Part shown: positions 44,069 through 62,727 of the stretch, piece by piece | Position numbering within the stretch: position 1 is the stretch's first letter | How the letters are laid out: the number at the start of each line of letters is the position of its first letter | Assembly (NCBI GenBank): GCA_017557625.1 | Contig: JAFYYG010000065.1 | Location: 25,898 to 89,897, forward strand | DNA: 64,000 nt | Source: Muribaculaceae bacterium | Lineage (GTDB): Bacteria; Bacteroidota; Bacteroidia; Bacteroidales; Muribaculaceae | Direction of reading: 5' to 3' | Translations under genes and position numbers: made by a program | The notes under the pieces: model-generated | Told to the model about the DNA's origin: nothing | Database searches by the model: none | Seen by the model: the letters and a program-made list of their open reading frames with translations, nothing else

Positions 44069-44095
44069 TTATCACACTAATTAAACGAATTTAAA

Positions 44096-45136: not shown

Positions 45137-45143
45137 TCTCTAT

Positions 45144-46454
45144 TCAGCTCTCAATATCAACGCTAAGGTCGTCGTTTATCGTGTTGCCAAGTGTGACTGT
45201 GGTTACTGTGTTGACCAGTTCAGGGCGGTTGGGAGCGTTGACGCGGATGTAGTTGTCGGTAAAGCCGTGCATCACGTCGCTGCCAGCAGGGGGTTGCTCA
45301 AAGAGCACGGGGCGCTCTGTGCCGAGGAATCGCTCAATGAAATCACGCTGCTGGCGGTCGCTGAGTTCCATCATGCGTGCCACTCGCGCGTCGCGCTCGG
45401 TTTTGGGCACGATGTAAGGGATGCGCAACGCCTGGGTGCCTGGACGCTCGCTGTAGGGGAACACATGCAGGTGCTGCACACCCAGCGAGGCGATGAATTG
45501 CAGCGAGTCCTCGAAGTGTTCGGGCGTCTCGCCGCGAGTGCCCACCATCACGTCAACGCCTATGAAGGCATGTGGCATCGCCTGGTGTATGCGCTCCACC
45601 TTACGAGCGAAAAGGTCGCGGGTGTAGTGGCGGCGCATGAGACGCAGCACCTCGTCGTTGCCGCATTGCAATGGGATGTGGAAGTGTGGCATGAAGGCGC
45701 GCGACTCGGCACACCAGTCTATAACCTCGTCGTCGAGCAGGTCGGGCTCTATCGATGATATGCGGTAGCGCTCTATGCCTTCCATCTGGTCAAGGGCTTT
45801 GAGCAGGTCGAAGAAATGCTCGTTGGTATTCTTGCCGAAGTCGCCGATGTTCACGCCGGTTATCACTATCTCCTTGCCACCTCGGCGGGCCACATCCTGT
45901 GCCTGCTCCACCAGCGATGCAATAGTGCCGCTGCGGCTGCGGCCACGAGCCAGAGGGATGGTGCAGTAGCTGCAATAGTAGTCGCAGCCGTCCTGCACCT
46001 TGAGGAAATAGCGTGTACGGTCGCCGCATTCGCACGAGGGCGAGAAACGGCGTATGTCCTTGTGTGGCGTGACGACAAGCGCGTTCTGCTTGTCGTTGAG
46101 CCATTGCTCGATGTAATTGACCACTTCGCCCTTCTGCTCGTTGCCCAGCACGATGTCCACACCTGGAATCTCGGCTATGCTTTTGCCCTGCAACTGCGCG
46201 TAGCAGCCGGTGACCACAACCAGAGCCTCGGGATATCGGCGGATGAGGTTACGGATGCTCTGTCGGCATTTGCGGTCGGCAAGGGAGGTTACGCTGCAGG
46301 TGTTGACAATGCAGATGTCGGGTACCTCGTCGCCCTTCACCGTAGTGGCAATGCCTCGCTCGAGCAACTGCTGACCTATGGTGGCGCTCTCCGAGAAGTT
46401 AAGCTTGCATCCCAGAGTCACAAATTTCACTTTATGTAAAGCCGCATCGGTCAT
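45144..46454 (-). CDS. mtaB: tRNA threonylcarbamoyladenosine methylthiotransferase
   Basis: A 436-residue radical SAM enzyme that adds a methylthio group to t6A37 of tRNA. The N-terminal UPF0004 domain begins KVKFVTLGCKLNFSES and has cysteines at NTCSVTSLADRKC and VVTGCYAQL for the auxiliary cluster. The radical SAM cluster is CDYYCSYC, followed by IPLARGRSRS, and a TRAM domain ends the protein. The start MTDAALHK at 46454 is chosen because it lies 18 bp after a perfect -7 box; an ATG at 46496 lies upstream of that box. Confidence 0.95.
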   Translation of the reverse strand: MTDAALHKVKFVTLGCKLNFSESATIGQQLLERGIATTVKGDEVPDICIVNTCSVTSLADRKCRQSIRNLIRRYPEALVVVTGCYAQLQGKSIAEIPGVDIVLGNEQKGEVVNYIEQWLNDKQNALVVTPHKDIRRFSPSCECGDRTRYFLKVQDGCDYYCSYCTIPLARGRSRSGTIASLVEQAQDVARRGGKEIVITGVNIGDFGKNTNEHFFDLLKALDQMEGIERYRISSIEPDLLDDEVIDWCAESRAFMPHFHIPLQCGNDEVLRLMRRHYTRDLFARKVERIHQAMPHAFIGVDVMVGTRGETPEHFEDSLQFIASLGVQHLHVFPYSERPGTQALRIPYIVPKTERDARVARMMELSDRQQRDFIERFLGTERPVLFEQPPAGSDVMHGFTDNYIRVNAPNRPELVNTVTTVTLGNTINDDLSVDIES

Positions 46455-46471
46455 TATTATAAAAATATGTG

Positions 46472-46479
46472 CAAAGTTA
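46472..46479 (-). promoter_or_regulatory. -7 box of mtaB
   Basis: Minus-strand TAACTTTG, perfect match, fixing the mtaB start at 46454 with a short leader. Confidence 0.65.
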
Positions 46480-46598
46480 CAAATAATCTCCCACACAAGA
46501 GCAAGAAAAGAAATTTTTTACGCAAAGCCGATTACCAAGAGCATCATGTTTTGATTAAGAAGAAAACGAAATTATTAACACAAAAAATCCTATTTATT

Positions 46599-47165
46599 AT
46601 GACATTCTTCAAAAACATTTTTTCGGCAGCCGCTATGATGGCGGTTGGCTTTTTATGCTTCAGTGCAAGCGCACAACCAGTTAACCAGGTAAATTATTGC
46701 ACATTTGATGGCGGCAATTATAATGTTGCCAGTACAAACGACAACGGCGCGAACTATGTCTTTAACAGAGACTATTTCGAGCTGATGGTTATGACGTTGG
46801 ATAGTAAAACTCCTTACACTGAATGTGAGGGAATAGAAATCTCGAGTATTACATTAAAAGACAATAGCATCAATATAAATACCACACTTGGCAGTTATTA
46901 TGCATCTAAAATTAAATTGATGGATAGCGAAAGCGCAGAAACAGTAAGTGATATTCTTGCTGAAAGTGTATATCAGATGTGTAATATGCTTGGCAAAGAT
47001 GCCGAAGGCTACACAATGATTGAGAAAATGAAGGCTCTAGGTATAAATATTAACTATAATTTCTATGTGAGAGGAGACCGAGTTCCTGTGAAGTCAATAC
47101 AAATCTCGGCGCAACAACTCTGCGAGATGGGACAAGACAACATCGTAGCTCTCTCAGAGAGATGA
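46599..47165 (+). CDS. Hypothetical secreted protein, paralogue 1
   Basis: A 189-residue protein with signal peptide MTFFKNIFSAAAMMAVGFLCFSASAQ. The mature domain is unrecognised; it ends with INYNFYVRGDRVPVKSIQISAQQL, which resembles the end of the next gene (VNYNFYIKNIGVIVKTFTINAQSI). Both share KNIF at the N-terminus and an AAGAAGAAAACGA word in the leader, so they are tandem duplicates. They lie just upstream of the sigma factor gene, but terminators separate them from it. Confidence 0.75.
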   Translation: MTFFKNIFSAAAMMAVGFLCFSASAQPVNQVNYCTFDGGNYNVASTNDNGANYVFNRDYFELMVMTLDSKTPYTECEGIEISSITLKDNSININTTLGSYYASKIKLMDSESAETVSDILAESVYQMCNMLGKDAEGYTMIEKMKALGININYNFYVRGDRVPVKSIQISAQQLCEMGQDNIVALSER

Positions 47166-47192
47166 TTGCTTAGGGTTAAATAAATATTTTTC

Positions 47193-47236
47193 AAGCGACG
47201 GCAACCGCCAAAATGGTTGCCGCCGCTTTTTTGCTT
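47193..47236 (+). terminator. Intrinsic terminator after paralogue 1
   Basis: The stem AAGCGACGGCAACC / GGTTGCCGCCGCTT has one mismatch and an 8-nt loop and is followed by TTTTGCTTT. Confidence 0.8.
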
Positions 47237-47237
47237 T

Positions 47238-47330
47238 AAACATAATCTGCTATGCCTTCGTCAATAGCTTTATAAGCAGCCCAAAACAAATTCTGTTCTT
47301 ACGTAAATCTAATGACCTATTCTAGCTTAA
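47238..47330 (-). repeat. Partial copy of the dispersed element at 40512-40906
   Basis: In reverse orientation this segment matches the left quarter of the MITE-like element, including 18 identical bases (AGAACAGAATTTGTTTTG) and the diverged terminal motif near 47310-47330. It lies in the 333-bp gap between the two secreted paralogues; the rest of that gap has no gene and carries the leader of the second one. Confidence 0.6.
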
Positions 47331-47498
47331 CGCCGCACTGGAGTTTCGTTCATAGTTATCAGATGTCCTCAATCTCCCGCATCTCAATATCCGCAAAAAT
47401 AAGAAAACAAAGATTAAAATCTGTAAATCCCGATTACTTTTCTCAAGTGTCATTATATAGAAGAAAACGAGATTATTCATAAATAAAATTTTAATATT

Positions 47499-48086
47499 AT
47501 GGCACTTTTTAAGAACATTTTTTCGGTAACTGCTTTGGTTGCAGTTTTGAGCTTTTCAAGCGTTAGCGTTAGTGCTCAGCCAATGAGCTTGGTTAAGGAG
47601 CGCACACCTGACAAGGATTATCTGCTTGGCGAGAGTGATACAAAGGTTAGCGCTTCGCAATCGTTCAAAGTAATCTTTGACAAGCCAACTATTGGCAGCA
47701 TGATCAAGCGCCTTAACCACTTCGGCACTCCTCTCATCCTGGGTGATGGCATTGAATTGAGCAGTGTAGATATGGATATGGACGAGGATATTATAACCTT
47801 CAACGCCACATGCGACTATGAAACTTTCGTGACCATCGAGGAGTTTGAAGAGGACGAACTCGAAGAGTTTGTACAGTCGTTGGAAGTTAGTCTTTACGAG
47901 ATTTTCAACACTGCCGGTTTCGACGACAATGGGGACAGCCTGGTGAAGCGCTTGCAGGATATGAATATCACGGTGAACTACAATTTCTACATAAAGAACA
48001 TAGGCGTTATTGTGAAGACTTTCACCATCAATGCCCAGAGCATCGAGAATGCGGGTCTCATCGCAAATAACATTTATTCAATATAG
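47499..48086 (+). CDS. Hypothetical secreted protein, paralogue 2
   Basis: A 195-residue protein with signal peptide MALFKNIFSVTALVAVLSFSSVSVSAQ. The mature region includes an acidic stretch (IEEFEEDELEEF) and ends similarly to paralogue 1. No enzyme motif is visible. A hairpin follows and then the sigma factor gene, 151 bp downstream. Being next to an envelope-linked sigma/protease locus, it could be an exported sensor or a regulated product; that is inference only. Confidence 0.75.
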   Translation: MALFKNIFSVTALVAVLSFSSVSVSAQPMSLVKERTPDKDYLLGESDTKVSASQSFKVIFDKPTIGSMIKRLNHFGTPLILGDGIELSSVDMDMDEDIITFNATCDYETFVTIEEFEEDELEEFVQSLEVSLYEIFNTAGFDDNGDSLVKRLQDMNITVNYNFYIKNIGVIVKTFTINAQSIENAGLIANNIYSI

Positions 48087-48098
48087 GCATCATTACAG

Positions 48099-48132
48099 GG
48101 TGGTGGCAAAGCGACACACTTTGACCACCACC
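48099..48132 (+). terminator. Hairpin after paralogue 2
   Basis: GGTGGTGG pairs with CCACCACC and CAAAG with CTTTG, with one bulged A and a 7-nt loop. The following TTGTTGTG is only moderately T-rich. Confidence 0.6.
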
Positions 48133-48203
48133 TTGTTGTGAGAGTGAAGGTTGCTTTAATAAACTTTTTCAAAATAATGCTTTCATTTTACAGGATTTTG
48201 TGT

Positions 48204-48211
48204 TATCTTTG
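48204..48211 (+). promoter_or_regulatory. -7 box of the sigma factor gene
   Basis: TATCTTTG, a perfect housekeeping -7 match, 26 bp before the start codon; the -33 region is weak. Confidence 0.55.
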
Positions 48212-48237
48212 CCGATTAATACCATAATCTTGATAAT

Positions 48238-48819
48238 ATGGAAGAATATAATGAAATTGTAAACGATTGGTATGTAAAATTGAGAGACTTGTTCCTCAAC
48301 TACATCCACAAACACATTCCTGGACTCCGCATCGAGGATATCGAGGATATCTATAGCGAAACGTTTATCGCAGTGCGTGAAAACATGCTCAACAACCGTG
48401 TGAAAGAAGGCACCAAGTGGAAATCTTACATCTTCCAGATAGGATACAACATGGCCATCAACCGGATGAAACAGGAGGGCAAAAAGATGGAGATTATAGA
48501 TAATTCCAATGACGATGACATCGATGCCGACAGGAAGTTTGAGACACAAATCTCTCTCATGGATCTCATCAACGAGGACGACGACAAGGAGCAGCTCGAG
48601 AAAAGAATTGAAACGCTAAAGCGAGAGATACGCTACCTGCCCGAGCCCTGCGAGACCATTCTCAAGGACTTTTACTTTGGAGGGTTTTCAATGACCGAAA
48701 TCATGTATGAGATCAACTACAAGACTGCCGACTCGGTGAAGGCGAGAAAAAACAAATGCATGAATCAGTTAAAAGAAAGAGTTAAAGTGGCTTTCAAAAT
48801 GTTGAATTTAATAGATTGA
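48238..48819 (+). CDS. ECF-type RNA polymerase sigma factor
   Basis: A 193-residue sigma-70 family protein. Region 2 is at about residues 10-80 (IEDIYSETFIAVRENML, then WKSYIFQIGYNMAINRMKQ) and region 4 at about 135-190 (LPEPCETILKDFYFGGFSMTEIMYEINYKTADSVKARKNKCMNQLK). An acidic linker joins them. Regions 1 and 3 are absent, as in ECF sigmas. It lies 4 bp from the anti-sigma-like gene, the usual pairing, and heads a run with caspase and CHAT proteases. Confidence 0.9.
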   Translation: MEEYNEIVNDWYVKLRDLFLNYIHKHIPGLRIEDIEDIYSETFIAVRENMLNNRVKEGTKWKSYIFQIGYNMAINRMKQEGKKMEIIDNSNDDDIDADRKFETQISLMDLINEDDDKEQLEKRIETLKREIRYLPEPCETILKDFYFGGFSMTEIMYEINYKTADSVKARKNKCMNQLKERVKVAFKMLNLID

Positions 48820-48823
48820 CACA

Positions 48824-49612
48824 ATGAAAAATTTTGACAATAATATAGAGATGTTCGATGCTTATCTTGACAATCGGATGAGCGGCGACGAAAAGGCGGA
48901 ATTTGAAGCATTGCTTGGCAGCGACAAGAAGCTAAAGCAGGAGTTCAAAGACTACAAGGAGATTATGTTTGCTCTGCAATCCTCTTGCAGCGACGCCGAC
49001 AAAGAATTTGAGGAGGCCCTCAAGGGAATCTCCGACGAGGACATGAAAAATATTGTCTCGTCAAAAAAAGAGCAAGGCACTCAGACACAGCTCTTCGCCG
49101 AGGAAAAACCTAAAGGGAAAATGGTGCCCTTGAAGACTGTGTATCGCTGGGTGAGTGCCGCAGCTGCAGTGTTACTCTTAGTGGGAGTGGGTACACACCT
49201 GTTCTTGGGACGACAGCCGAAGAATGGTATTAACACCGACCTTGTGTGTGATAATGTTGTTAAAGGATATAATTTCAGCACAATAAACTCATCAAGAAGC
49301 AGTAGTAACGGTGATGAAAACGAATATAATAAAGCAATTAATTTGATTAATGATAACAAAACCGTCCAGGCTATCCCTATACTTGAGGAACTTTATAAGA
49401 ATCCCACGAACAAACAGATGAGACCAAAATACTCTATTTCTCTTGCTAATGCCTACCTGAAAAACCATGACCTCAAAAATGCTCAGCGCATTATTCTCAA
49501 TGAATTGAAAAATGCACAAAAAGATGAGAATAATATTGCAAATCTTGACCAATTATTAGAACTGGAGGAAAAAATTATCACTGAACTCAGTAATGAATTA
49601 AACAAAAAATAA
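48824..49612 (+). CDS. Anti-sigma-like membrane protein with periplasmic repeats
   Basis: A 262-residue protein. The N-terminus (FDAYLDNRMSGDEKAEFEALL) is the motif seen at the start of many Bacteroidetes anti-sigma-type proteins, lacking zinc ligands. One membrane helix is at about residues 106-128. The periplasmic part (about 160-262) looks like TPR helices (AIPILEELYKNPTN, AQRIILNELKNAQK). Its cytosolic domain probably binds the sigma factor encoded 4 bp upstream, with the periplasmic helices exposed to the exported proteases encoded next. Confidence 0.8.
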   Translation: MKNFDNNIEMFDAYLDNRMSGDEKAEFEALLGSDKKLKQEFKDYKEIMFALQSSCSDADKEFEEALKGISDEDMKNIVSSKKEQGTQTQLFAEEKPKGKMVPLKTVYRWVSAAAAVLLLVGVGTHLFLGRQPKNGINTDLVCDNVVKGYNFSTINSSRSSSNGDENEYNKAINLINDNKTVQAIPILEELYKNPTNKQMRPKYSISLANAYLKNHDLKNAQRIILNELKNAQKDENNIANLDQLLELEEKIITELSNELNKK

Positions 49613-49619
49613 AACAACT

Positions 49620-50654
49620 ATGAGGAATTTTTTATTCGTGATATTGGCCGCCATCGTGATGAGTGCGATGGCAGTGTCGTGCGGCAATGACGGCAGCAAC
49701 GGCTCCAACAAAGATGGCGACAATTCGGCGGCCAACGAGCGTGGCACAAAGGCAAGCGACAGCAGCGAGGTCCTTGACGATAGCATCGGCATAGACACTA
49801 CGGGTATTGAAACACCCATGGACTCCGGATTCCAGAAATCAACGAAAAAAGCCATGCTCATAGGTGTCAGCACCTACAAAGACAAGTCATGGGAGAGTAT
49901 AAGTTCGGGCAACGACATCGACATGCTTGAGAAGACCTTGACTAAAGAGCTCGGTTTTGAGGTAGTGTTACGCACCGAGAGCAGAGCTACACATCAGGGC
50001 ATTGTCAACGCCTTTGTTGAACTGACCAATAAGTGCAATCCTGGCGACACCGTACTCGTTCATTTCTCGGGTCACGGCCAGCAGATGGTGGACCAGGAGG
50101 GCGATGAGACCGATGACCACCTCACTGAGTGCTTCATTCCCTATGATGCCTATATGAAGTGCAGTACCGACCCTAACGGCTATCGCGGACAATGCCACTT
50201 CACAGATGACGAGATGCACAAGTACATTGCCAACCTAAGGAAGAAACTCGGCAAGAACGGATTCCTGCTTGTCACTCTCGACGCATGCCACAGCGGAAGC
50301 CTATCAAGAGAAAGTGATTCAGAAAACAAGGTGATGCGTGGCACTAATGATTATTTTGGCTATGGTATCCTCAAGCAGGCCAAGGTTAAACCGCGTTTTG
50401 TTACTGGAGATGTCAACTATGCAAGATATGTGGTCGTCAGTGCATGCCAGCCCGACGAGATAAACTATGAAGTGTCACGAAACGGTAAGAACTACGGCTC
50501 TCTGTCATTCATCCTTAATGAGAAACTCCTCGACGTGAAGAGTGGCAAGCTCACTATCGACAAACTCCCCACAGCCATCAAAGGCGAAAGGTCCTACTGG
50601 AGCGAACAGGGACAGACACCCTACATCGACAACAACGACGAGAACGTGCAATAA
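49620..50654 (+). CDS. Caspase-fold (C14) lipoprotein 1
   Basis: A 344-residue lipoprotein with signal MRNFLFVILAAIVMSAMAVSC. A caspase-like domain starts near residue 78 (KAMLIGVSTYKD). The catalytic His lies in HFSGHGQ near residue 150 and the Cys in LDACHSGS near residue 222, so the dyad is intact. The S1-type Asp region (DETDDHLTECFIPYDA) follows the His. Caspase-fold enzymes of bacteria cleave after Arg/Lys or Asp; specificity cannot be read here. It lies 7 bp after the anti-sigma-like gene. Confidence 0.92.
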   Translation: MRNFLFVILAAIVMSAMAVSCGNDGSNGSNKDGDNSAANERGTKASDSSEVLDDSIGIDTTGIETPMDSGFQKSTKKAMLIGVSTYKDKSWESISSGNDIDMLEKTLTKELGFEVVLRTESRATHQGIVNAFVELTNKCNPGDTVLVHFSGHGQQMVDQEGDETDDHLTECFIPYDAYMKCSTDPNGYRGQCHFTDDEMHKYIANLRKKLGKNGFLLVTLDACHSGSLSRESDSENKVMRGTNDYFGYGILKQAKVKPRFVTGDVNYARYVVVSACQPDEINYEVSRNGKNYGSLSFILNEKLLDVKSGKLTIDKLPTAIKGERSYWSEQGQTPYIDNNDENVQ

Positions 50655-50680
50655 TGCACACTGCCAATAGATAAACACAA

Positions 50681-50714
50681 ATTGCCATAGATGCGCTTCT
50701 ATGGCAGTTTGTTT
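50681..50714 (+). terminator. Hairpin between caspase 1 and TPR-CHAT 1
   Basis: ATTGCCATAG pairs with CTATGGCAGT (one G-T pair) around an 8-nt loop and is followed by TTGTTTAAAA. It may end or attenuate the sigma/anti-sigma/caspase message. Confidence 0.65.
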
Positions 50715-50804
50715 AAAATATTAATTGTTGCAATAGGCCCTTGTTGAGGACCAGCAACTATGACAATCGTTTTTTACTATATAAACCAAATTTCAAAACA
50801 CTAT

Positions 50805-53800
50805 ATGAAAATGAACCCCAAAGTATTAAAAACTATACTATTTGTTATGCTTGCCTTCAGCATGCCACTATCAGTCTGGGGGCAGGAGGTGGACTCACTG
50901 ATGATGGTATTCAAGAATAATAGTCATATTAATTCAGGGAATGAAGATATAGCAATTGAAACAGGGGAATTAATTCTCTCTATACACCCTGAAATTGTTA
51001 CCGACTCTGCAAGTATTGATTTCATTTTGGCACTTGCAAAATGCTACGATAGCAAAAAAAGATATGACAAATCGATCGAGTTAAATGAAACTGTTATAGA
51101 AATATTAAACACTAAAGGGGATAATAATTTTGAAATAGCAAACATTTTAATTGAAATAGGCAAACAAGAACTTAAATTACATCAGTATGAAAAAGCAGAA
51201 TCTACATTTTTGCAGGTTGAGGAAATGTGTAAAGAGTTATATGGAGAAGACACTCAAGAATTTGCTGATATTCTTGATGAAATAGGTCGACAATATTGGT
51301 TAACTGATTATAATGATGTGGATAAAGAAAATAATAAATCAGTAAATTATTTTTCTCGAGCCCAAAAAATATATATTGAGACAAAAGGTTATTATAGTCT
51401 TGACGTTGCTGAAAGACTTGAAAGAATTGCTTTGGCCTATAAGGGTCAAGGTGAGTACAATAATGCTATAGGTTGTTATAAGGAAGCCAAAGAAATATAT
51501 AAAAAATTAAAAGGGCATGATTGTCTTGAAATTGCTAAAATAATTAATTCAATTATCCTTATTTATTGCCAATTTGAACTTGAAGATGAGGCTTTTTTAA
51601 ATGAATGTTTTAATGAACTAAAAGAAATAAATATAAATGCAATCAATGCAGATGATGATAAAGTTGCAAGTTTACTATCTAAAATCGGGAATTGCTATGG
51701 GTATATTAATGATTATGAAAATGCAATTAGTTATTTGATACAAGCAAAAGATGTATATTATGGTATTATCTTAAAAGACAAAATACCAAATAGTATAAAT
51801 GAGATGTTTTATTTCGCACATATATATGAAATCGGTGATTTATATAATAAAATATATGGATATGATAGAGTAATAAGTTTTTATGTTCAAGAGCAAGAAA
51901 GGTTTATAAGTTTAGAAGGCGATTATTATGCTCTATTAGCATCAGAAATATCAGCTTATATAGCAAATTGCTATTATAAGCAAGGTGACTATAATAAAGC
52001 TTTATATTTTTACATTAAAAGGAAAGAGGAACATAAAGACTTTAGATATAGTAGTATAGGTAATAATTCTCATTTAGGATATATATTTGAAAGAATTGGT
52101 AATTGTTATGAGAAAATGCATGATTCAGATAATGCTATAGATTATTATTCACAAGCTATTCGTTTATTTAATTATAATAAATTTGATAAGTATGATAAGG
52201 ATGATTATGGAGTTGGACGAATGTTAGAAGATATTGGTGACTGTTATCTATTTTTAAATAAAGAATATAACAAGGCGATACAACAGTATTGTACAGCAAT
52301 ACAGCAGTATAACAATAAAAGCTCAGATATACTATTAAAATTAGGAACTTGCTATTATTATCTCAAGGAATATTCCCAAGCTCTTGATTGTTGTTTTCAA
52401 TCTTACGATATATATATGACATCAGAAAGAAATTATATTGAACAAGAGACTGATATATTAACAATGATTTCTCATGTATATTTTGACGTGAAAGATTATA
52501 ATAGAGCGTATTCCTATATAAATGAAGCATTAGAAATAAATTATAACGATTTGATTGATTGGCTTTTTCGTGCTCGTGAATTCTATCGCATTAAATATTG
52601 GAATAGCATATCAAAACTTTTTTTATCAGATTATCCAAGCATAGTTTTTTCAATAAAAGAAAAAATACCTACCGGAAATTTATATAACAAGTCAGCACTT
52701 TTTGCTAAGGGTTTACTTCTCACTACTGACAAGGAAATAAGTCATTTTATTTTTGAAAGTGGTGATAGTATTTTGATTTCTACTTATAATAGCTTGCAAA
52801 ACATACAAAAACAGCTGATAAAACTTAATGAGCTCCATTCAGATAATAGCATCATTACTTTGTATGAAAAAAAAGCCGAAATTTTGGAGGATAAGATGCT
52901 TGTAAGATTGAATAAATTGAAGGAGTTCAAAGAATATAAGCAAAATATGCAACTCACTTGGCGGGATGTACAAAAGAAACTTAGCGATAACGACATCGCT
53001 ATAGAATTCCTGTCTTTCCCTAAGTTTGGAACCGACAACATTATGTATATCGCCCTTACCGTGCGACCTGGCTATGATCAGCCGCACTTGATTGAGATTT
53101 GTAATGAAAGTGATTTGAAAGATTTGAAGGAGTCGGCTTATACAAGTACGGCAGTGAGCAAACTTATTTGGGGAAAGCTTGCTGATGAAGGTGAACTAAA
53201 TGGTGTCGATACCATCTATTTCTCCCCTAGCGGATTATTGCACACCATCGCCATCGAGTCGCTGCCGCACTGGGCGGAAAAAGATTCTTTGATGTGCAAC
53301 AAGTACAAGATATACCGTCTGTCCTCTACCCGTGAGTTGGCAATAAAGCGCAACACTGTAGGCACTAACAAAGCGTTGCTCTATGGCGGAATGAAATACA
53401 GCTGCCTCCCTAAAGATATGATAGCAGCGACAGATGAGTTGCTCACACAAGAAGATTTGTCAGAGTATGTGGCATCGAATGACATCGGCATTGGCGAGCG
53501 CCTTGCTGAACCCGTCGCCTCCATGTTGCTCGGAGAGGAGTGGAACGACTTGCCCCCAACAATGGTCAAGAGCATCAAAGGAATGCTTGACACAAAATAC
53601 GATGTTGCATTAATATGCGACAAAAAAGCTACAGAGACATCTTTCAAATTATTATCTAAAAAGAATGAAATAATAGTTCTACATACTCATGGTTTCTATT
53701 GGGACAAGTCCAAAGCACTGGAAGAAACCAGTGCGCGTAAAGCCAACCATGAGAGAATATTGCCATTCATGCAAATAGACGATGCCATGACCCGCTGTGG

Positions 53801-54227
53801 GTTGGCCTTCAATGGCGCCAACAACATAAAAAAAGGAGTAACCATACAATCAGGCTATGACGACGGCATTCTCACAGCGCAAGAGGTAGCGAATCTTGAT
53901 TTGCGTGGCCTAGACCTACTTGTTCTATCGGCCTGCCAGACTGGTGATGGTGAGATAGGCAGCGATGGTGTTTTCGGTCTCCAGCGCGGTTTCAAGAAAG
54001 CGGGAACTCAAAGCATCATAATGAGTCTTTGGGAAGTTGACAGCCAAGCCACTGAAATGATGATGAAGGAGTTCTTTAAAGCCTGGACAGGTGACTGCAG
54101 CAAGCACGAGGCATTTGTCAAAGCACAAAATGAGGTTAAGAAAGAATATGGCAACAAATATGATGAAGAAAAGCATAAGGGTCCTCACTGGGCGGCCTTC
54201 ATCCTGCTTGATGCTATTGATAGATAG
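50805..54227 (+). CDS. Exported TPR-CHAT protease 1
   Basis: About 1140 residues. Signal peptide MKMNPKVLKTILFVMLAFSMPLSVWGQ; an ATG at 50760 is possible but adds 15 residues. About 15 TPR-like repeats fill residues 30-650 (for example YDKSIELNETVIEIL, YNNAIGCYKEAKEIY, YNKALYFYIKRKE). The CHAT domain begins near 740 and has catalytic His in VLHTHGFYW near 958 and Cys in LSACQTGDGE near 1043. CHAT proteins are caspase relatives that cleave specific partners. The TPR region is far more AT-rich than the CHAT region. Confidence 0.92.
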   Translation: MKMNPKVLKTILFVMLAFSMPLSVWGQEVDSLMMVFKNNSHINSGNEDIAIETGELILSIHPEIVTDSASIDFILALAKCYDSKKRYDKSIELNETVIEILNTKGDNNFEIANILIEIGKQELKLHQYEKAESTFLQVEEMCKELYGEDTQEFADILDEIGRQYWLTDYNDVDKENNKSVNYFSRAQKIYIETKGYYSLDVAERLERIALAYKGQGEYNNAIGCYKEAKEIYKKLKGHDCLEIAKIINSIILIYCQFELEDEAFLNECFNELKEININAINADDDKVASLLSKIGNCYGYINDYENAISYLIQAKDVYYGIILKDKIPNSINEMFYFAHIYEIGDLYNKIYGYDRVISFYVQEQERFISLEGDYYALLASEISAYIANCYYKQGDYNKALYFYIKRKEEHKDFRYSSIGNNSHLGYIFERIGNCYEKMHDSDNAIDYYSQAIRLFNYNKFDKYDKDDYGVGRMLEDIGDCYLFLNKEYNKAIQQYCTAIQQYNNKSSDILLKLGTCYYYLKEYSQALDCCFQSYDIYMTSERNYIEQETDILTMISHVYFDVKDYNRAYSYINEALEINYNDLIDWLFRAREFYRIKYWNSISKLFLSDYPSIVFSIKEKIPTGNLYNKSALFAKGLLLTTDKEISHFIFESGDSILISTYNSLQNIQKQLIKLNELHSDNSIITLYEKKAEILEDKMLVRLNKLKEFKEYKQNMQLTWRDVQKKLSDNDIAIEFLSFPKFGTDNIMYIALTVRPGYDQPHLIEICNESDLKDLKESAYTSTAVSKLIWGKLADEGELNGVDTIYFSPSGLLHTIAIESLPHWAEKDSLMCNKYKIYRLSSTRELAIKRNTVGTNKALLYGGMKYSCLPKDMIAATDELLTQEDLSEYVASNDIGIGERLAEPVASMLLGEEWNDLPPTMVKSIKGMLDTKYDVALICDKKATETSFKLLSKKNEIIVLHTHGFYWDKSKALEETSARKANHERILPFMQIDDAMTRCGLAFNGANNIKKGVTIQSGYDDGILTAQEVANLDLRGLDLLVLSACQTGDGEIGSDGVFGLQRGFKKAGTQSIIMSLWEVDSQATEMMMKEFFKAWTGDCSKHEAFVKAQNEVKKEYGNKYDEEKHKGPHWAAFILLDAIDR
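53207..54218 (+). repeat. CHAT-domain duplication, copy A
   Basis: About 1.0 kb encoding the CHAT core of the first protease is nearly identical at DNA level to 55578-56592. The similarity drops sharply upstream of the start of the segment. Confidence 0.85.
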
Positions 54228-54293
54228 AAAACCATGGAAGAGATATTTTTTTATTAAATAATCCCCAAAAGAATACCTCCCCATAAAGAATAT

Positions 54294-56600
54294 ATGAAAA
54301 CAACATTTTTTAATCGAACGATTTTGGCGATGGCAATTGCCATTATATCTACTTTCACTACTTGGGCACATGACGTTCAGTCTGAAATAAATGATTATAG
54401 TGCTCCTCAAGGTTTACTTGGCTTTTTTGATAATGATGAAGAACTTTTAGCTTTTTGGTTATCAGATATTGGTGATGATCATGCTGATAAAGGCGACTTT
54501 GAAAATGCCATAGATGCTTATACTAAAGCTAAAAATAAATTCATGACTCTTGGCAAAGAAGAATATGCTGCAATTATATTGTCGCAAATAGGTGATTGTC
54601 AATACAATGTGCGTAATTTTGATAAAGCAATAGATGCTTATACTGAAGCTAAAAATATATACATCACTTTACACAATGTGAAATTGGAAGCAGACATGCT
54701 ATCATCTATCGCTGACTGCTATTTAATACAAGGAAATTTTGAAAAAGCAATGAGATATTATAAAGAAGCTTCAGAGAAGTATAGGGCTTCAAATAATGAA
54801 AGCAGAGAAGCCGATATGTTGTTAGCTGATAGTTATTCTTTATTTTTTCAACGTGATTTCGTCAACTCATTATCAAATTTTAAAAAAGGATTAGCTAAAA
54901 AACACCCACAAGTACTTAATGAACTAAAAAAAATGACATCTGCTGAACGCAAATCTTTTTGGGAAAACAATTCAATTTATTATAATTCTCTTTATCCTAA
55001 CATAGTTTTTACAACAAATGACACCACGTTACTAGGAGATATGTATGATAAGTCCTTATTATTTGCTAAAGGCATGCTGATAAGTGCTGACACTGAGATT
55101 GAAAGACTTATTGATGAGTATGGTTACAGCGCAGCCCAAAAAACGCTATCCGAACTAAAAGAAGTACGCGCTAAACAAACTAAACTTTATGAGATAAAAT
55201 TAGAGGAACGAGAGCAAGCAAAAGAATCATTTGAAAGACAAGAAGAGAAACTGGAAAAATACCTATTAGACTTCTTAAATAGCATAGAGGAATATGGCGA
55301 CTTCACTAAAAACTTGCAATTATCTTGGCGAAATGTGAAAAGAAATCTTGGTGACAGTGACAGACGCATCGCCATTGAGTTCCTCTCTTTTCCGAAACTT
55401 GGCACCAATGACACTGTCTATATTGCTTTGACAATTCGTGATAACGACAAATATACAGAACCGAAAATGACATTTCTATGTGAGGAGAAGGATTTAAAGG
55501 CAGCAAAGAAAAAACCATACACCAGCAATGCGTTGAGCAAGTTGATTTGGGCACCACTTGCCAAAGAGCTAGAAGATGTCGATACCATCTACTTCTCTCC
55601 TAGCGGCTTGCTTCACACCATCGCCATCGAGTCGATGCCGCACTGGGCGGAAAAAGATTCTTTGATGTGCAACAAGTACAAGATATACCGTCTGTCCTCT
55701 ACCCGTGAGTTGGCAATAAAGCGCAACACTATTGGCACAAACAAAGCGTTGCTCTATGGCGGAATGAAATATAGCTGCCCCCCTAAAGATATGGTAGCTG
55801 AGACAAATGAGTTGCTCACACATAATGATTTGTTAGAGTATGTGGCATCAAATGACATCGGCATTGGAGAGCGCCTTGCTGAACCCGTCGCCTCCATGTT
55901 GCTCGGAGAGGAGTGGAACGACTTGCCCCCAACAATGGTCAAGAGCATCAAAGGAATGCTTGACCCCAAATACGATGTCGCATTAATATGCGACAAAAAA
56001 GCTACAGAGACATCTTTCAAGTTATTATCTAAAAAGAATGAAATAGTAGTTTTACATACACATGGTTTCTATTGGGACATGTCCAAAGCTCTGGAAGAAA
56101 CCAGAACACGTAGAGTCAACCATGAGAGAATATTGCCTTTCATGCAAATAGACGATGCCATGACCCGCTGTGGGTTGGCCTTCAATGGGGCCAACAACGT
56201 AAAAAAAGGAGCTACCATACCATCGGGCTATGATGACGGCATTCTCATAGCGCAAGAGGTAGCGAACCTTGACTTGCGTGGCCTTGATCTGCTTGTTCTA
56301 TCGGCCTGCCAGACTGGTGATGGCGAGATAGGCAGCGATGGTGTTTTTGGTCTCCAGCGCGGTTTCAAGAAAGCGGGAACTCAAAGCATCATAATGAGTC
56401 TTTGGGAAGTTGACAGCAAAGCCACAGAAATGATGATGAAGGAATTCTTTAAAGCCTGGGCAGGTGACTGCAGCAAGCGTGAGGCATTTGTCAATGCACA
56501 AAATGAGGTTAAGAAAGAATATGGCAACAAATATGATGAAGAAAAGCATAAGGGGCCTCATTGGGCAGCCTTCATCCTGCTTGATGCGCTAGAAAAATAA
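54294..56600 (+). CDS. Exported TPR-CHAT protease 2
   Basis: A 768-residue protein with signal peptide MKTTFFNRTILAMAIAIISTFTTWA. Only three or four TPR repeats follow (residues 55-190: FENAIDAYTKAKNKF, FDKAIDAYTEAKNIY, FEKAMRYYKEASEKY), then a coiled-coil segment and a CHAT domain with His in VLHTHGFYW near 590 and Cys in LSACQTGDGE near 670. Its last 340 residues are almost the same as those of the preceding protease, so the two should share cleavage chemistry while the TPR parts select different partners. Confidence 0.92.
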   Translation: MKTTFFNRTILAMAIAIISTFTTWAHDVQSEINDYSAPQGLLGFFDNDEELLAFWLSDIGDDHADKGDFENAIDAYTKAKNKFMTLGKEEYAAIILSQIGDCQYNVRNFDKAIDAYTEAKNIYITLHNVKLEADMLSSIADCYLIQGNFEKAMRYYKEASEKYRASNNESREADMLLADSYSLFFQRDFVNSLSNFKKGLAKKHPQVLNELKKMTSAERKSFWENNSIYYNSLYPNIVFTTNDTTLLGDMYDKSLLFAKGMLISADTEIERLIDEYGYSAAQKTLSELKEVRAKQTKLYEIKLEEREQAKESFERQEEKLEKYLLDFLNSIEEYGDFTKNLQLSWRNVKRNLGDSDRRIAIEFLSFPKLGTNDTVYIALTIRDNDKYTEPKMTFLCEEKDLKAAKKKPYTSNALSKLIWAPLAKELEDVDTIYFSPSGLLHTIAIESMPHWAEKDSLMCNKYKIYRLSSTRELAIKRNTIGTNKALLYGGMKYSCPPKDMVAETNELLTHNDLLEYVASNDIGIGERLAEPVASMLLGEEWNDLPPTMVKSIKGMLDPKYDVALICDKKATETSFKLLSKKNEIVVLHTHGFYWDMSKALEETRTRRVNHERILPFMQIDDAMTRCGLAFNGANNVKKGATIPSGYDDGILIAQEVANLDLRGLDLLVLSACQTGDGEIGSDGVFGLQRGFKKAGTQSIIMSLWEVDSKATEMMMKEFFKAWAGDCSKREAFVNAQNEVKKEYGNKYDEEKHKGPHWAAFILLDALEK
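55578..56592 (+). repeat. CHAT-domain duplication, copy B
   Basis: Second copy of the nearly identical 1.0-kb CHAT segment, 2.37 kb downstream of copy A in direct orientation. Confidence 0.85.
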
Positions 56601-56635
56601 ATAAAAGATAATTCAATGTAAAATTTATAATTGTC

Positions 56636-57835
56636 ATGAGAGCAAAAGAAAAAAAACTGCCAATAAACAAATTGGCAACAGAGAGCAGAAAACGAAACAT
56701 GTTGTGCGCCATCGCAGTGATACTTTGCGTAGCAATGATGGCTTTGTCGTGCAATAATCAGGGAGAAAATCCTGACTCTAGCGGCACTCAATCAGCACAA
56801 GAGCAGACGAGCCTTGGGAATAGCTCTGTGGATTCAGTTGCCACCGACAGTACACTTAACAATGATTCAAATGACGCCACCGCAGCTGCAGCCACAAAAT
56901 ACAATGAGCTGGTTATAAAAAAAGTGGAGAGCCAAACAAGCCTTACAAATAAAGACTTTAAGGAATCAAGACGCAAGGCATTGCTCATAGGTGTGGGAAA
57001 TTACACCAAACACAGAGGTTGGAACAAAAATACTGGCTGGGAAGATCTTAGCTCACTTAATGATATCGCTTTGCTGCAGGAGCAATTGATAGCATTGGAT
57101 TTCAAGGTGGTAACTATCACTGATGAAGCTGCTACCCATGCTGGAATCATAAACGCTCTAAACCTTCTTGCCGCTAAAGGCTGTTGCCATCCAGGCGACA
57201 CATTGATTGTTCATTTCTCTGGCCATGGACAGCCTATGCTCGATATTGTTGGCGATGAAGATGATCATTTGACCGAGACCTTTGTCCCAATAGATGCCTT
57301 AAGGCAATCAACCCCTGATTACAATATGGCACAGAACCATTTAAAAGATGATGAAATCAATGATCACATAGTTGCAATCACCAACAAGATTGGTGCTAAT
57401 GGCGTCTTGCTGGTATCACTTGATGCCTGCCATAGCGGAGGCGGAACTCTTGCCGCAAAGAATATCAAAGATGACAGAAAAAAACGCAGCACGGGTGAAA
57501 TTTTTACGTCAGAAGAACTGATTAATCTGGCTAAAGATTATGATAAAGCCAAAACTCCTAGATACGCGTCCCATTTTTATGCAATAAGCGCTTGCAAGTC
57601 CGACCAGGTAAATTATGAATATAAAGACGAAGCAGGTGCATTAGGTGTGAAAGACCGCGAGTATGGCTCTTTGTCCTTTGCTCTTTGTCGAGAGTTGGCG
57701 AATCTCAAGAAAGGTGAGAAGATTAATTTTGACAAACTGACAAATGCTGTCATCAATCACAAGGAGAACAATCCGCCACTTTGGGATTGTCAAACGCCAG
57801 TTAGAGAAACCAATGAGAGTGACAACATGCGTTAG
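56636..57835 (+). CDS. Caspase-fold (C14) lipoprotein 2
   Basis: A 399-residue protein with an N-terminal basic extension before a lipobox signal (MLCAIAVILCVAMMALSC); the start could also be the ATG at 56699. The caspase domain begins ALLIGVGNYTKHRGWNK; catalytic His is in HFSGHGQ near residue 193 and Cys in LDACHSGGG near 264. It is a diverged paralogue of caspase 1 with a longer insert after the Cys. It lies 36 bp after the second TPR-CHAT gene and ends the protease run. Confidence 0.9.
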   Translation: MRAKEKKLPINKLATESRKRNMLCAIAVILCVAMMALSCNNQGENPDSSGTQSAQEQTSLGNSSVDSVATDSTLNNDSNDATAAAATKYNELVIKKVESQTSLTNKDFKESRRKALLIGVGNYTKHRGWNKNTGWEDLSSLNDIALLQEQLIALDFKVVTITDEAATHAGIINALNLLAAKGCCHPGDTLIVHFSGHGQPMLDIVGDEDDHLTETFVPIDALRQSTPDYNMAQNHLKDDEINDHIVAITNKIGANGVLLVSLDACHSGGGTLAAKNIKDDRKKRSTGEIFTSEELINLAKDYDKAKTPRYASHFYAISACKSDQVNYEYKDEAGALGVKDREYGSLSFALCRELANLKKGEKINFDKLTNAVINHKENNPPLWDCQTPVRETNESDNMR

Positions 57836-57939
57836 CGATAGCAGTTTCTGTCAATAGAGAACTAAAACTAACAACTTATATAATTTATTACCATTATTCT
57901 ACGTTAAAGAGATATAGTAATTTAAACCGAGAATTATCG

Positions 57940-60900
57940 ATGAGACACATCAAGCAATGGCATCGTGTGGCGATTGTTGTTGTTTTCTTGTCGTTGAGGT
58001 GCAATGTGGCAGTCAGCGCATTTGATTTCAGCGTCAACAATATATACTACAACATCAATGATAAGACGCTCACCGCCGAGGTGACGTATGCTGATAACGC
58101 TTACAACAGTTACAGTGGTCGAGTTGTCATTCCTGCCACGGTGAATAATGGTGGAAAGACCTATAAAGTTACTGCCGTGGGGGATAACGCCTTCCGCGAC
58201 TGCTCTGGACTCACCAGCGTGGTCTTTGGCTCAAATTTGGAAACTATAGGCAAACGGGCATTCCTCAATTGCTCGTCGCTGACATCTGTCAACATCACTG
58301 GAGCAGTGACCGAGATTGACGACTACGCCTTTGCGCAATGTGACGCTTTGATAACTGTGCAAATGAATAACAACGCTCCGTTGGAGGTGGGCAATGGGGC
58401 TTTCATGCGATGTTCCTCGCTGAAAAATGTGAAATGGCTATCGTGCAAGAATCTGGAAGGATATGGTGGGCTAAATAGCTTGGAAACTAACGCCTTCGCC
58501 CACTGTACATCGCTCGTAAACATCATGTTGCCTGGCGCCATTGAGTATATGGGCACCACAATCTTCGACGGCTGCACTAAGTTGACAAGCATCACCGTCA
58601 CTGTTGACCAGCCACTGCCGCTTAGTGGTGATCCTTTTGCCCTCAGCAGTTCGGTGACAATATATGTGCCCTCGTCGGGTCAGGCTGGTGTGAGTGCCGC
58701 CCTTTACCAGAATGCGGTTGGATGGAGCAATTACACTATTGCTGAATTGCCTTACTCCTTTATCGACGGTGATGGTTACACTTATCTCAAGACCTCTTAT
58801 GGTTCTGTTGCCCTATCAGGCGCCCAAACGCCTAAGACCGAGGTGGAAGTAAGAAACAGCATCACTGGATATAGCGGCGAGAACTACAATGTCACCTCTA
58901 TTGGTGACCAGGCTTTTAAAGGTTCGGCGATCGCCTCTATTAACACCAGCAATGCTTTCCACCTCAAGTCTATTGGTATCGAGAGTTTTGCTAACTGCAC
59001 CAGCCTTGTCAGCGTCTCGCTCACTGAAGGCATCACTACGATGGGTGAGCGTGCTTTCGCCTCTTGCACCGCCTTGACAACAATAATGTCTCCCTCCACA
59101 CTGCGAATTATTTCCAAAGGAAGTTTTGAGGGTTGTTCAAGTCTAAATGATGTGAGACTGTTGTTGGGACTGTCCACCATTTGCGAGAACGCCTTTGCGC
59201 ATTGCACAAGTCTCACCTCGCTAAGTCTGCCCAGTTCTGTCACTTGCGTCGAGCCCAAAGCTTTCAAGGGAACATCGGCACTACAGGAAATACTCGTTGA
59301 CCCGCACTGCTTTTCCTATGTCGCTGTCGAAGGTGTGTTATACGAAAAGAAATATGTCGAAAATCCAGAACCAGAAGCAGCCGATGAGATTAACAAGTTG
59401 GCAGTATACCCCTCCAATAAAGCTGGAGAGGTGTTATACATTCCACCTGGTGTGACCGAAATAAAGCCCGCCGCTATACAAGACGCTATAAATCTCAAGC
59501 AGGTGGCCATCCCGCCCACCACCACCGTCTTTGGCGAAAACTGCTTCGATGGCACCAACTTACAATTCATCAACTATCGCTGTAAACACCCATCCAATGC
59601 CGGCACGAGTGGCATAACGGCTGTCCTCAAGGCCAATGCCACGCTTCAGGTGCCCGAAGGAACGATGGGCGAATACAGCTCCCTCTCGGCTTGGAAGGGC
59701 TTTAAGAGTATTGTCGAGCGATATGATGTGTGTGGTGACAACAAGTTTGTATATGATTGGAACTATAGTAACCAAGTGACATTAGTGGATATAAAACCTG
59801 CTGCCGTTAATTCCAGCGGTACAGTTTCTTTGCCTTTGGGGATGACTTTAAACGGTCTTGACTATGTCATCACCGAGCTTAAAAACACCTCTACAGCACA
59901 AGTGGCGCAGCAGGTGAAAAATCTGAGAATAGGCTGTGACAGCCTCTCTGTCATTGATTTGAGCAATGACATCAACCCGCTTGCCGCGCTCACATCACTT
60001 CAAACAATCTCCATTAGTGATAATCACCCCTATTTCAAGATTAGCGATAACGTCCTCTACAACAAAAAAGGCAACCTCCTTTATTATTACCTCCATTCAA
60101 AAGCGCAAGAATCGTTCACTCTGCCTAATACCGTAGATACGATAAAGTCTCAGGCTTTTGCTCAAAACACGAAGTTGAAAGTGTTGACATCGGAAAAAGC
60201 CTTAAAGTATATTAGCAACAAAGCCTTTGAGGGTTGCACTTCGCTGCAGGTATTGGATAATATGAAATATGTTACTGTAATAGGCAACCATGCCTTTGCT
60301 GGATGCACCGCTTTGACTACTGTCAATGGTGGTGAGCGTCTCAATTCAATTGGCAGTGGGGCTTTCCTCAATTGTAATAATCTGCGGGAGTTTCCTTTTT
60401 GTCATGGCATGCTCACTAACATTGGCACCCAAGCATTCAAAGGATGCTCGTCGCTCACCGTGGCTATACTGGGAAGCATGCTATCCAGCATTGGTGATGG
60501 GGCTTTTGAGGACTGCACCGCACTGGGCAAGGCATTCTTCACCTCCGATGTCAATTACATGGGACACCAGCTTTTCAAGGGTTGCTCCTCGTTAAGCGAA
60601 CTGTGGCTCTGTAACACTGTGCCGCCGCAAGTTGGCAACGATTTTTTCACTTCCCCGGCAAGCATCGTGCTATATGTGCCTCAAGATGCCGCTAGCGCCT
60701 ACCGCACCACCTCGCCATGGAAAAACGTTGCTCAGATAAACACGTGTCACTATCTTGACAATAGCGCCGATGTCAACAACGACAAGGCTGTCAATGCCTA
60801 TGATATCACTCTTGTGTATTCGGTGCTGCTCGGGGTTGAAGACATAGATATGGTGGGGCACTGCGACGTCAATCATGATGGTGCGGTTACTGCGTCCGAC

Positions 60901-61236: not shown

Positions 61237-61340
61237 GCTTTAAAAGGTTGGTTTGTGTTTAGAGCAGAAATAAACGACCAACGAAAACCGAAAAAGCAAT
61301 CGTTTGTTTTGGCTTTTTTGGGCAATATTAAACCCCACAT

Positions 61341-61371
61341 TTTGACTTTAGCGATTAATTCACTATTTTTG
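61341..61371 (+). promoter_or_regulatory. Promoter of eno
   Basis: TTTG at 61341-61344 and TATTTTTG at 61364-61371 with 19 nt between them, a full consensus match 48 bp before the start codon. Confidence 0.8.
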
Positions 61372-61410
61372 CAGAAAATATTAAAACACATTTTAAAAAC
61401 ACTCAAATAA

Positions 61411-62727
<1,317 letters not shown>

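Follow-up and report, generated by a model that had tools for sequence, protein, structure and literature searches.

The genome of a Muribaculaceae bacterium (GenBank assembly GCA_017557625.1) carries a compact gene cassette in which an extracytoplasmic function (ECF) sigma factor and a membrane anti-sigma-like protein stand beside four caspase-type proteases with predicted export signals. The window analysed here is the whole stretch of 64,000 nucleotides from contig JAFYYG010000065.1 (positions 25,898 to 89,897 of the forward strand). Within it, the sigma gene, a member of a distinct subfamily, occupies 48238..48819 and is followed after 4 bp by the anti-sigma-like gene (48824..49612) and, after another 7 bp, by C14a (49620..50654), which encodes an exported metacaspase-like lipoprotein of peptidase family C14. 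Two exported TPR-CHAT proteases, CHATa (50760..54227) and CHATb (54294..56600), and a second exported metacaspase-like lipoprotein, C14b (56636..57835), complete the run, and all genes lie on the plus strand. An earlier note, made from the sequence alone, had described these six genes in one run and had claimed that all four proteases keep their His and Cys residues. Both statements are borne out: the open reading frames and gaps are as given above, and the dyad is present in C14a (His152, Cys223), C14b (His197, Cys265), CHATa (His977, Cys1059) and CHATb (His590, Cys672). The whole host genome (3.05 Mb, 76 contigs, 88% complete) holds only three C14 and four CHAT matches, two of each in this cassette, which argues that their clustering is not due to chance.

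A recurrent gene set around one sigma subfamily

The window sigma shows homology to ECF sigma regions 2 and 4. It matches TIGR02937 over residues 10-181 (E 9.6e-11; 41.6 bits, under the cut-off of 42.9) and PF04542 at 18.7 bits, under the cut-off of 24, and the profile of its subfamily matches SigW, SigH and SigE chains. That profile, built from 16 homologues and searched in 149 genomes of the host's family, gives the window sigma 260 bits and sets the subfamily clearly apart: among the matches listed were 16 subfamily sigmas at 215-272 bits, one at 94, and other ECF sigmas at about 70 or less. The distribution is patchy, with a subfamily sigma in 14 of the 149 genomes, and most named relatives come from Muribaculaceae or other Bacteroidales. 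An ECF group number may already exist for this subfamily.

The company kept by this sigma is solidly recurrent. Neighbourhoods were read directly with profiles of the four proteins, which were trained on cassette members and somewhat favour them, and 57 loci were added from a scan of named genomes. The counts below cover 43 distinct loci with sigmas of at least 195 bits, after seven identical loci and one duplicate second sigma had been dropped and with the near-duplicates L133 and L132 retained (L and G numbers are our own handles for loci and genomes). The anti-sigma gene adjoins the sigma gene in all 43, at gaps of -52 to 276 bp; within 8 kb, C14 is found in 38, CHAT in 34, both in 32 and either in 40. 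With the same profiles, none of 20 other ECF loci of the same family has an anti-sigma, C14 or CHAT partner, and this contrast (40 of 43 against 0 of 20 for C14 or CHAT) led us to reject chance linkage. The neighbourhood search that the earlier note had proposed as a check shows recurrent linkage and so does not refute the note's reading. The 20 loci were unusable as a control for the anti-sigma itself; none of them shows an evident anti-sigma directly downstream, so they represent other kinds of ECF. Genome searches with Pfam models were likewise not used as a linkage measure. They missed cassette C14 genes in G101, G037, G074 and G058, which also makes the absence of C14 and CHAT from G016 uncertain.

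Where a partner was not seen, the contig often ends nearby. C14 was not found within 8 kb of the sigma in L033, L034, L114, L120 and L138, nor CHAT in L029, L030, L032, L033, L034, L042, L104, L114 and L123; in L029, L032, L042, L114, L120 and L138, the contig ends no more than about 2.5 kb from the sigma. The CHAT gene of L030 went uncounted where the fetched stretch cuts through it, and is seen in L082. Two loci have neither protease, namely L033, whose anti-sigma reading frame is only 75 residues long, and L034, on a 7.7 kb contig. Gene order varies considerably: with T for CHAT, s for sigma, a for anti-sigma and C for C14, the 48 loci compared, partial ones included, show TsaC in 16, saCT in eight, CsaT in five and eleven other orders. 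CHAT alone does not predict the set, since 14 CHAT loci chosen as sigma-free (L068-L081) have no sigma, anti-sigma or C14.

Across 29 full cassettes (L132 and L133 left out), protein distances are correlated between sigma and anti-sigma (rho 0.82), sigma and C14 (0.61), sigma and CHAT (0.60) and C14 and CHAT (0.47), with a Mantel p of 0.001 for each, a pattern that shared descent alone could produce. We give practically no credence to the idea that the genes are chance neighbours or an assembly artefact. Most of the genomes are metagenome assemblies, many with short contigs, but the set also recurs in the apparent isolates Barnesiella sp. WM24 and Muribaculaceae bacterium Isolate-104, it comes in several gene orders, and the 20 control loci lack it, so that this explanation is already contradicted.

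Two side observations concern the sigma genes themselves. Related sigmas that score 94-153 bits and stand without a recognised anti-sigma or protease directly next to them occur in L126 (16150-16941), L135 (615-1160), L137 (8004-8573) and L066 (7766-8575). In addition, an imperfect inverted repeat, possibly an operator, covers the sigma promoter and ribosome-binding region in part of one clade, at the equivalents of window positions 48148-48262. Its arms pair at 12 of 12 positions in L104 and 11 of 12 in L107 (0 of 200 shuffles as good), the pairing is good in L106 (0.015) and weak in L028 and L108, and the same search found no such repeat in the window itself or in L105. A search for a shared sigma promoter motif found no exact gapped word in more than three of 42 upstream stretches.

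Beyond the subfamily, three further full sets (L063-L065) have sigmas that score 43-59 bits, the level of unrelated ECF sigmas. A wider search with a C14 profile (matches at E 1e-30 or better, at most six candidates scored per genome) found matches in 36 of the 393 genomes searched within the order and in 14 of the 395 within the phylum, the window's own genome being counted in each, and the 40 stretches taken from it represent 41 of the 53 places outside that genome. At the level of the order, the whole set is present in L161, L164 and L165. Three loci (L168, L169 and L185) combine C14, in part with CHAT, and a sigma with single-transmembrane proteins that the anti-sigma profile does not recognise. 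C14, anti-sigma and sigma occur together in L182, while L163 has CHAT, C14 and anti-sigma with no sigma seen, and in L178 pieces of CHAT lie about 4 kb from C14. In many of the remaining stretches, a long C14 protein is present and none of its three partners.

A conserved basic residue in the anti-sigma

The second gene of the cassette is identified as an anti-sigma from its weak match to NF052375 (E 1.1e-5; 25.6 bits against a cut-off of 100), a single transmembrane segment at residues 110-128 and its conserved linkage to the sigma. The protein consists of an anti-sigma-like N-terminal cytoplasmic part, the membrane segment, a periplasmic linker and a TPR-like C-terminal domain, for which the profile matches are weak (E 0.011-0.036) and include several TPR-type chains. 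Lys and Arg are more numerous before the transmembrane segment than after it in 44 of 47 homologues, which supports an N-in topology with the linker outside. The cytoplasmic end is predicted to bind and inhibit the sigma.

The segment that follows the membrane varies in sequence and length across the 46 anti-sigmas aligned (L154 was left out, and L033 was too short), with the exception of one basic residue. This residue is kept in 45 of the 46 rows, as 41 Arg and two Lys in one column and as a Lys just before that column in L113 and L131. It lies 22-35 residues after the transmembrane segment (median 25; one at 49) and is followed by Gly in 33 rows, Ser in seven, Ala in two, Asp in two and Asn in one. 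Column entropy is 0.66 bits for the basic residue and 1.12 bits for the Gly-rich column next to it, against 2.02-3.51 bits for 31 other linker columns. In the window copy, the residue is Arg158 (codon at 49295..49297, plus strand), within the motif SSR-SSS, the predicted site of the first cut. A basic residue followed by a small or polar one ([RK][GSADN]) occurs 19-36 residues after the membrane segment in 44 of 46 anti-sigmas, where shuffling leads one to expect 24.3, and in 29 of 31 in the non-redundant set, where it leads one to expect 16.2. The only anti-sigma of the 46 without the basic residue is that of L034, on whose 7.7 kb contig no C14 or CHAT is present; L034 and L105 are the two that lack the motif at this distance.

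The C14 proteases

Both C14 proteins of the window match the Pfam C14 family (E 8e-20 and 5.4e-18) and have, by eye, a signal sequence that ends in a lipobox-like Cys; an N-terminal hydrophobic segment is found in 42 of 42 nearest cassette C14 proteins. The C14 profile matches the solved metacaspase chains 6w8s and 4f6o, which we take to be AtMC4 and Yca1, as well as 4afr (TbMCA2), and also GSU0716 (3bij). All 43 cassette C14 proteins keep the equivalents of His152 and Cys223 of C14a together with Asp99 and Asp221, a metacaspase-like dyad with an acidic S1 pocket. According to the available parts of two papers (PMC4357240, PMC6426788), metacaspases accept Arg or Lys in P1, and Asp95 and Asp211 of TbMCA2 form part of the proposed S1 pocket. 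Asp99 and Asp221 are the equivalents of these two residues, and the pocket therefore predicts that C14 would cleave after Arg or Lys.

A second conserved feature lies in the linker that follows the catalytic Cys. Counted in window numbering, an Arg stands 17 residues downstream of the Cys in 42 of 43 C14 proteins, with Gly in the next column in 41; the window copies have Arg240-Gly in C14a and Arg284-Ser in C14b. The exception is L134, in which the CHAT gene is also split over two reading frames. As a trait specific to the cassette, the Arg-Gly pair was considered and rejected: it is present in all eight long non-cassette C14 proteins with a readable linker. These came from 20 hand-picked, non-random control loci, of which L100 proved to hold a cassette C14 and L091, L097 and L101 had an unreadable linker.

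The CHAT proteases

The two CHAT proteins match Pfam CHAT (PF12770; E 4.1e-35 and 4.8e-38) and also TPR models, and the His-Cys dyad is present in 36 of 36 full-length proteins compared, as befits TPR-CHAT proteases. The earlier note had assigned export signals to all four proteases. This stands for both C14 proteins by eye and for CHATa, while the N-terminal signal of CHATb is visible by eye yet fails a 19-residue hydropathy test that CHATa passes. An N-terminal hydrophobic segment is present in 35 of 35 full-length cassette CHAT proteins; export as a cassette-specific CHAT trait was rejected, being general. No solved relative of the protease part of CHATa was found by sequence.

CHATa and CHATb are 91% identical over their last 300 residues but 31% identical in their front parts. 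Such a contrast is expected of a single enzyme, with a single substrate, that has been fitted with different sensor parts for different inputs, and the fronts of CHAT genes at other loci vary as well, being built of TPR or of leucine-rich repeats (LRR). At the DNA level, the two genes share a 300-nt stretch at 92% identity (53193-53492 and 55566-55865), which points to a catalytic part that was recently duplicated or has undergone gene conversion.

Two further CHAT loci lie elsewhere in the same genome. In L012 (contig C61, 9020-14695), a single frame of 1891 residues joins BspA-type LRR, TPR and CHAT, and the adjoining C14 is 81% identical to C14b, which makes this an LRR-fronted version of the protease pair. 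In L011, a CHAT gene has no C14 or sigma beside it. Downstream of it, at 7897-9382 of contig C22, two genes recognised by eye from their motifs, one lipoprotein-like and small and the other for a patatin-like phospholipase lipoprotein, form a pair that is a possible CHAT-controlled lipase.

An accessory block

The earlier note had taken the six genes as the unit. These do belong together, but the real block is wider, extending from 46587 to 57876 and including two genes for small secreted proteins upstream of the sigma. Its limits were defined by comparison with the near relative G925, in which the same flanks lie 37 bp apart (L202): in blastn, similarity of the left flank ends at 46586 of the window and restarts at 57877, so that 37 bp in G925 correspond to 11.29 kb here. 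The flank proteins of G925, an enolase and a methylthiotransferase-like protein (names assigned by eye), are 100% and 92% identical to those of the window. Since the flanks meet there without them, the block comprises UP1, UP2, the sigma, the anti-sigma, both C14 and both CHAT genes, and the whole set was gained or lost as one block at this site. An LRR/dockerin gene at 57940-61236 was rejected as a part of the cassette, as its homologue is in place at the cassette-free site of G925. G060, of the same genus, carries a related version of the cassette next to what appear by eye to be the same two flanking genes (L028).

The two additional genes, UP1 (46599..47165, plus strand, with a likely start inside an open reading frame listed from 46467) and its paralogue UP2 (47499..48086, plus strand), have no Pfam match. 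Six proteins of their family occur in five of 46 cassette loci, and UP1 and UP2 are candidate sensors, ligands or sigma targets. Another conserved family, whose members have about 150 residues and show no evident signal peptide, occurs in 21 of 46 cassette loci (for example L129, 11216-11692), in several of them directly after C14; none was noticed beside the cassette of the window.

An accessory set of proteases invites comparison with defence or programmed death, in which the sigma would switch on a module whose exported proteases either kill or lyse their own cell or else disarm an invader. The patchy occurrence (14 of 149 genomes for the sigma) and the absence of the block from a near relative fit such a role, the caspase and CHAT families are both used in immunity, and both C14 proteins match the broad caspase model of PADLOC (E 9.6e-15 and 1.2e-12). 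On the other hand, no nuclease, NTPase switch or named defence system was convincingly matched among the cassette proteins, CRISPR-like repeats are absent from the locus, and the protease domains are predicted to be periplasmic, away from the usual targets in invaders. We therefore regard a defence module as very doubtful, and nothing in this analysis points to death, which the earlier note had offered as one outcome.

Relation to known systems

The comparisons made here rest on the available parts of the papers cited. Among the closest counterparts is the Craspase or CASP system, which comprises Cas7-11, Csx29, Csx30 and CASP-sigma (Strecker 2022, PMC10028731). There, too, one locus unites a TPR-CHAT protease with an ECF sigma and a sigma inhibitor, and the inhibitor is the natural candidate substrate. 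The present cassette differs in that C14 is the commonest protease partner, the proteases are predicted to be exported, and the anti-sigma is a membrane protein with a periplasmic site. Given this predicted export, and given also the repeat search and the type III-E sigma score reported below, the likeness to Craspase, which the earlier note had invoked, is best treated as an analogy. That the cassette would work without CRISPR, as the note had also supposed, agrees with the data. No CRISPR-like repeats occur in 44000-62000, where the only repeats come from CHAT paralogues and TPR units, and the NCBI type III-E sigma model gives the window sigma 26.3 bits against a cut-off of 100. Library scans of the cassette proteins recognised no Cas7-11, Csx30 or Csx31, with no Cas7-11 profile search of the genome made. 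Neither the profile scans nor the repeat search support CRISPR or a named defence system at this locus.

A second parallel is the control of sigma E through RseA by DegS and RseP (mentioned in PMC10028731), with which the cassette shares a single-transmembrane anti-sigma, a cytoplasmic end that is predicted to bind the sigma and a proposed first cut outside the membrane. In the present case, the proposed cutters are cassette-encoded cysteine proteases of clan CD, whereas DegS is a serine protease encoded elsewhere.

Three further gene contexts are related by their parts. Operons of a metacaspase and a sigma70-type factor recur in Myxococcus, other Deltaproteobacteria, Ralstonia and Fibrobacter (Asplund-Samuelsson 2012, PMC3501461), and resemble the cassette in that a caspase homologue adjoins a sigma factor; no anti-sigma, CHAT protein, substrate site or Bacteroidales placement is described in the available text. 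ECF54 (PMC8999054) has CHAT proteins in its conserved context, and control by proteolysis has been proposed for it. It is described as controlled without an anti-sigma and as also linked to carboxypeptidase and subtilase, with no C14 named in the part available, while here an anti-sigma is adjacent in 43 of 43 loci, a distinction drawn by description only. EACC2-caspase systems (Kaur 2021, PMC8195603) likewise bring together a caspase domain, an ECF sigma and a TPR protein. Compared by description, they combine EACC2 as a constant component with variable domains, in contrast to the stand-alone exported C14 and membrane anti-sigma found here, and the model for EACC1-type caspases (NF047832) gives the window proteins 41 and 32 bits against a cut-off of 140. 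Within a literature search of limited coverage for subscription papers, no description of this sigma/anti-sigma/C14/CHAT cassette was found.

A candidate proteolytic cascade

The anti-sigma as substrate makes the simplest story, because the four proteins keep conserved company, an Arg-type protease is on the right side of the membrane and a basic residue is preserved in an otherwise flexible stretch. We judge the chances to be evenly balanced that an exported pair of caspase-type proteases controls the ECF sigma through a first cut of the anti-sigma, without CRISPR. Within this model, the matching of enzymes to cuts, the sequence in which CHAT and C14 act, the incoming signal and the regulon are inferred. 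At rest, the inner-membrane anti-sigma would hold the sigma by its cytoplasmic end. The TPR front of exported CHAT, or elsewhere its LRR front, would read an envelope signal, and CHAT would activate exported C14, perhaps by cutting or exposing the Arg-Gly linker beside the catalytic Cys. C14 would then cut the anti-sigma after the conserved Arg or Lys about 25 residues outside the membrane, and a housekeeping site-2 protease together with cytoplasmic proteases would finish the process and free the sigma. DegS makes the first cut of RseA outside the membrane at a comparable distance, and the host genome contains the M50 family of site-2 proteases (PF02163). In its full form, as a periplasmic two-tier cascade in which CHAT is sensor and initiator and C14 the executioner that first cuts the anti-sigma at a dedicated Arg-Gly-type site, the model is put forward tentatively, at slightly less than even confidence.

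The earlier note had suggested the periplasmic part of the anti-sigma as one possible target of the exported proteases. The conserved basic-small site and the Arg-type pocket of C14 give this idea new support, and the cut itself is predicted from these residues. The site was also sought in order-level anti-sigmas, which had not been used in motif discovery and were fetched after the residue class had been recorded; it was found in 11 of 12, against 5.7 expected on shuffling (p 0.0015), with the bounds of the test window chosen after inspection of these rows, which weakens the test.

Further observations also weigh against the model. Among the order-level anti-sigmas, that of L163, beside which no sigma is seen, lacks the aligned basic residue (it has His-Gly) and misses the window test, and L191 lacks it as well, its hit being a nearby Lys-Asn that is maybe not the same residue. 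L105 misses the test, its Arg-Gly being 49 residues out, and L134 keeps the anti-sigma site although its C14 lacks the linker Arg and its CHAT is split. The conserved Arg could, moreover, serve binding or another protease. On the protease side, the Arg-Gly linker is not specific to the cassette (8 of 8 long and 0 of 9 short non-cassette C14 proteins, by eye), nor is the N-terminal hydrophobic segment of CHAT, which 15 of 15 other CHAT proteins compared also have. According to the available part of PMC4357240, caspases are processed about 14 residues after strand beta-4 and type I metacaspases need no processing, so that the linker Arg is only a candidate activation site. The gene set, too, has exceptions. 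In L104 and L123, which do have C14, the lack of CHAT is real, as about 7.6-9 kb of sequence to each side holds none; one protease gene is encoded on the opposite strand in L032, L037, L107 and L119, and C14 is 6.6 kb away in L116. In L154 (Algoriphagus faecimaris), sigma, anti-sigma and CHAT occur together but no C14 is recognised. In nine order-level loci (L160, L162, L166, L167, L171, L172, L176, L190 and L195), C14 occurs with CHAT and no sigma is seen; together with L012, these show that the sigma is not the sole partner of the C14-CHAT pair. It may be this pair that is associated more widely, sigma control being a frequent addition to it.

These sigma-free pairs, in the nine order-level loci and in the host's own genome, also feed the main rival explanation, in which the proteases are the output of the sigma. 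The sigma and anti-sigma would then sense alone or through DegS-like housekeeping proteases, and C14 and CHAT, transcribed by the sigma, would have other substrates, either in the envelope or of foreign origin. It is common for ECF operons to include target genes of their own sigma, and the variable TPR or LRR fronts of CHAT fit variable targets equally well. What this explanation does not predict is a basic residue in 45 of 46 anti-sigma linkers and its loss in the sole protease-free case (L034), and the gain or loss of the whole set as one block here speaks against it as well. We consider it unlikely, albeit deserving of serious attention; it could also hold alongside control of the sigma by the proteases, as positive feedback.

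A different order of events, in which CHAT, like Csx29 acting on Csx30, is the enzyme that first cuts the anti-sigma and C14 is a downstream target or a separate effector, strikes us as improbable. In type III-E systems, TPR-CHAT does cut a sigma inhibitor (PMC10028731, available part). L154 fits this order, as it lacks a recognised C14 and its anti-sigma has two Arg-Gly sites 33 and 40 residues after the transmembrane segment, and CHAT could make contact through its TPR with the periplasmic part of the anti-sigma, which is TPR-like as well. Against it, C14 is linked to the sigma at least as often as CHAT (38 versus 34 of 43 loci), and it is the S1 pocket of C14 that predicts the Arg or Lys observed.

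Taken together, the observation reported in the earlier note is confirmed, and its interpretation, control of the sigma by exported proteases, is partly supported and sharpened to one testable residue.

Implications

To our knowledge, the role of prokaryotic caspase homologues has long been open, few of their substrates are known, and cell death has been the default guess. From sequence alone, the present cassette offers a candidate for the substrate, another for the cut residue and, in the activity of the sigma, a readout, and it does so in gut commensals, some of which are apparently isolates. If the model of anti-sigma cleavage is true, it would give bacterial caspase homologues a non-lethal role in signalling, namely control of gene expression across a membrane with neither CRISPR nor cell death, encoded by movable cassettes whose sensor parts can be exchanged. 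As such, the cassette would constitute a CRISPR-free parallel to, or a possible source of, the Craspase-sigma circuit, and at the same time a caspase-type stand-in for DegS/RseA across the bacterial envelope.

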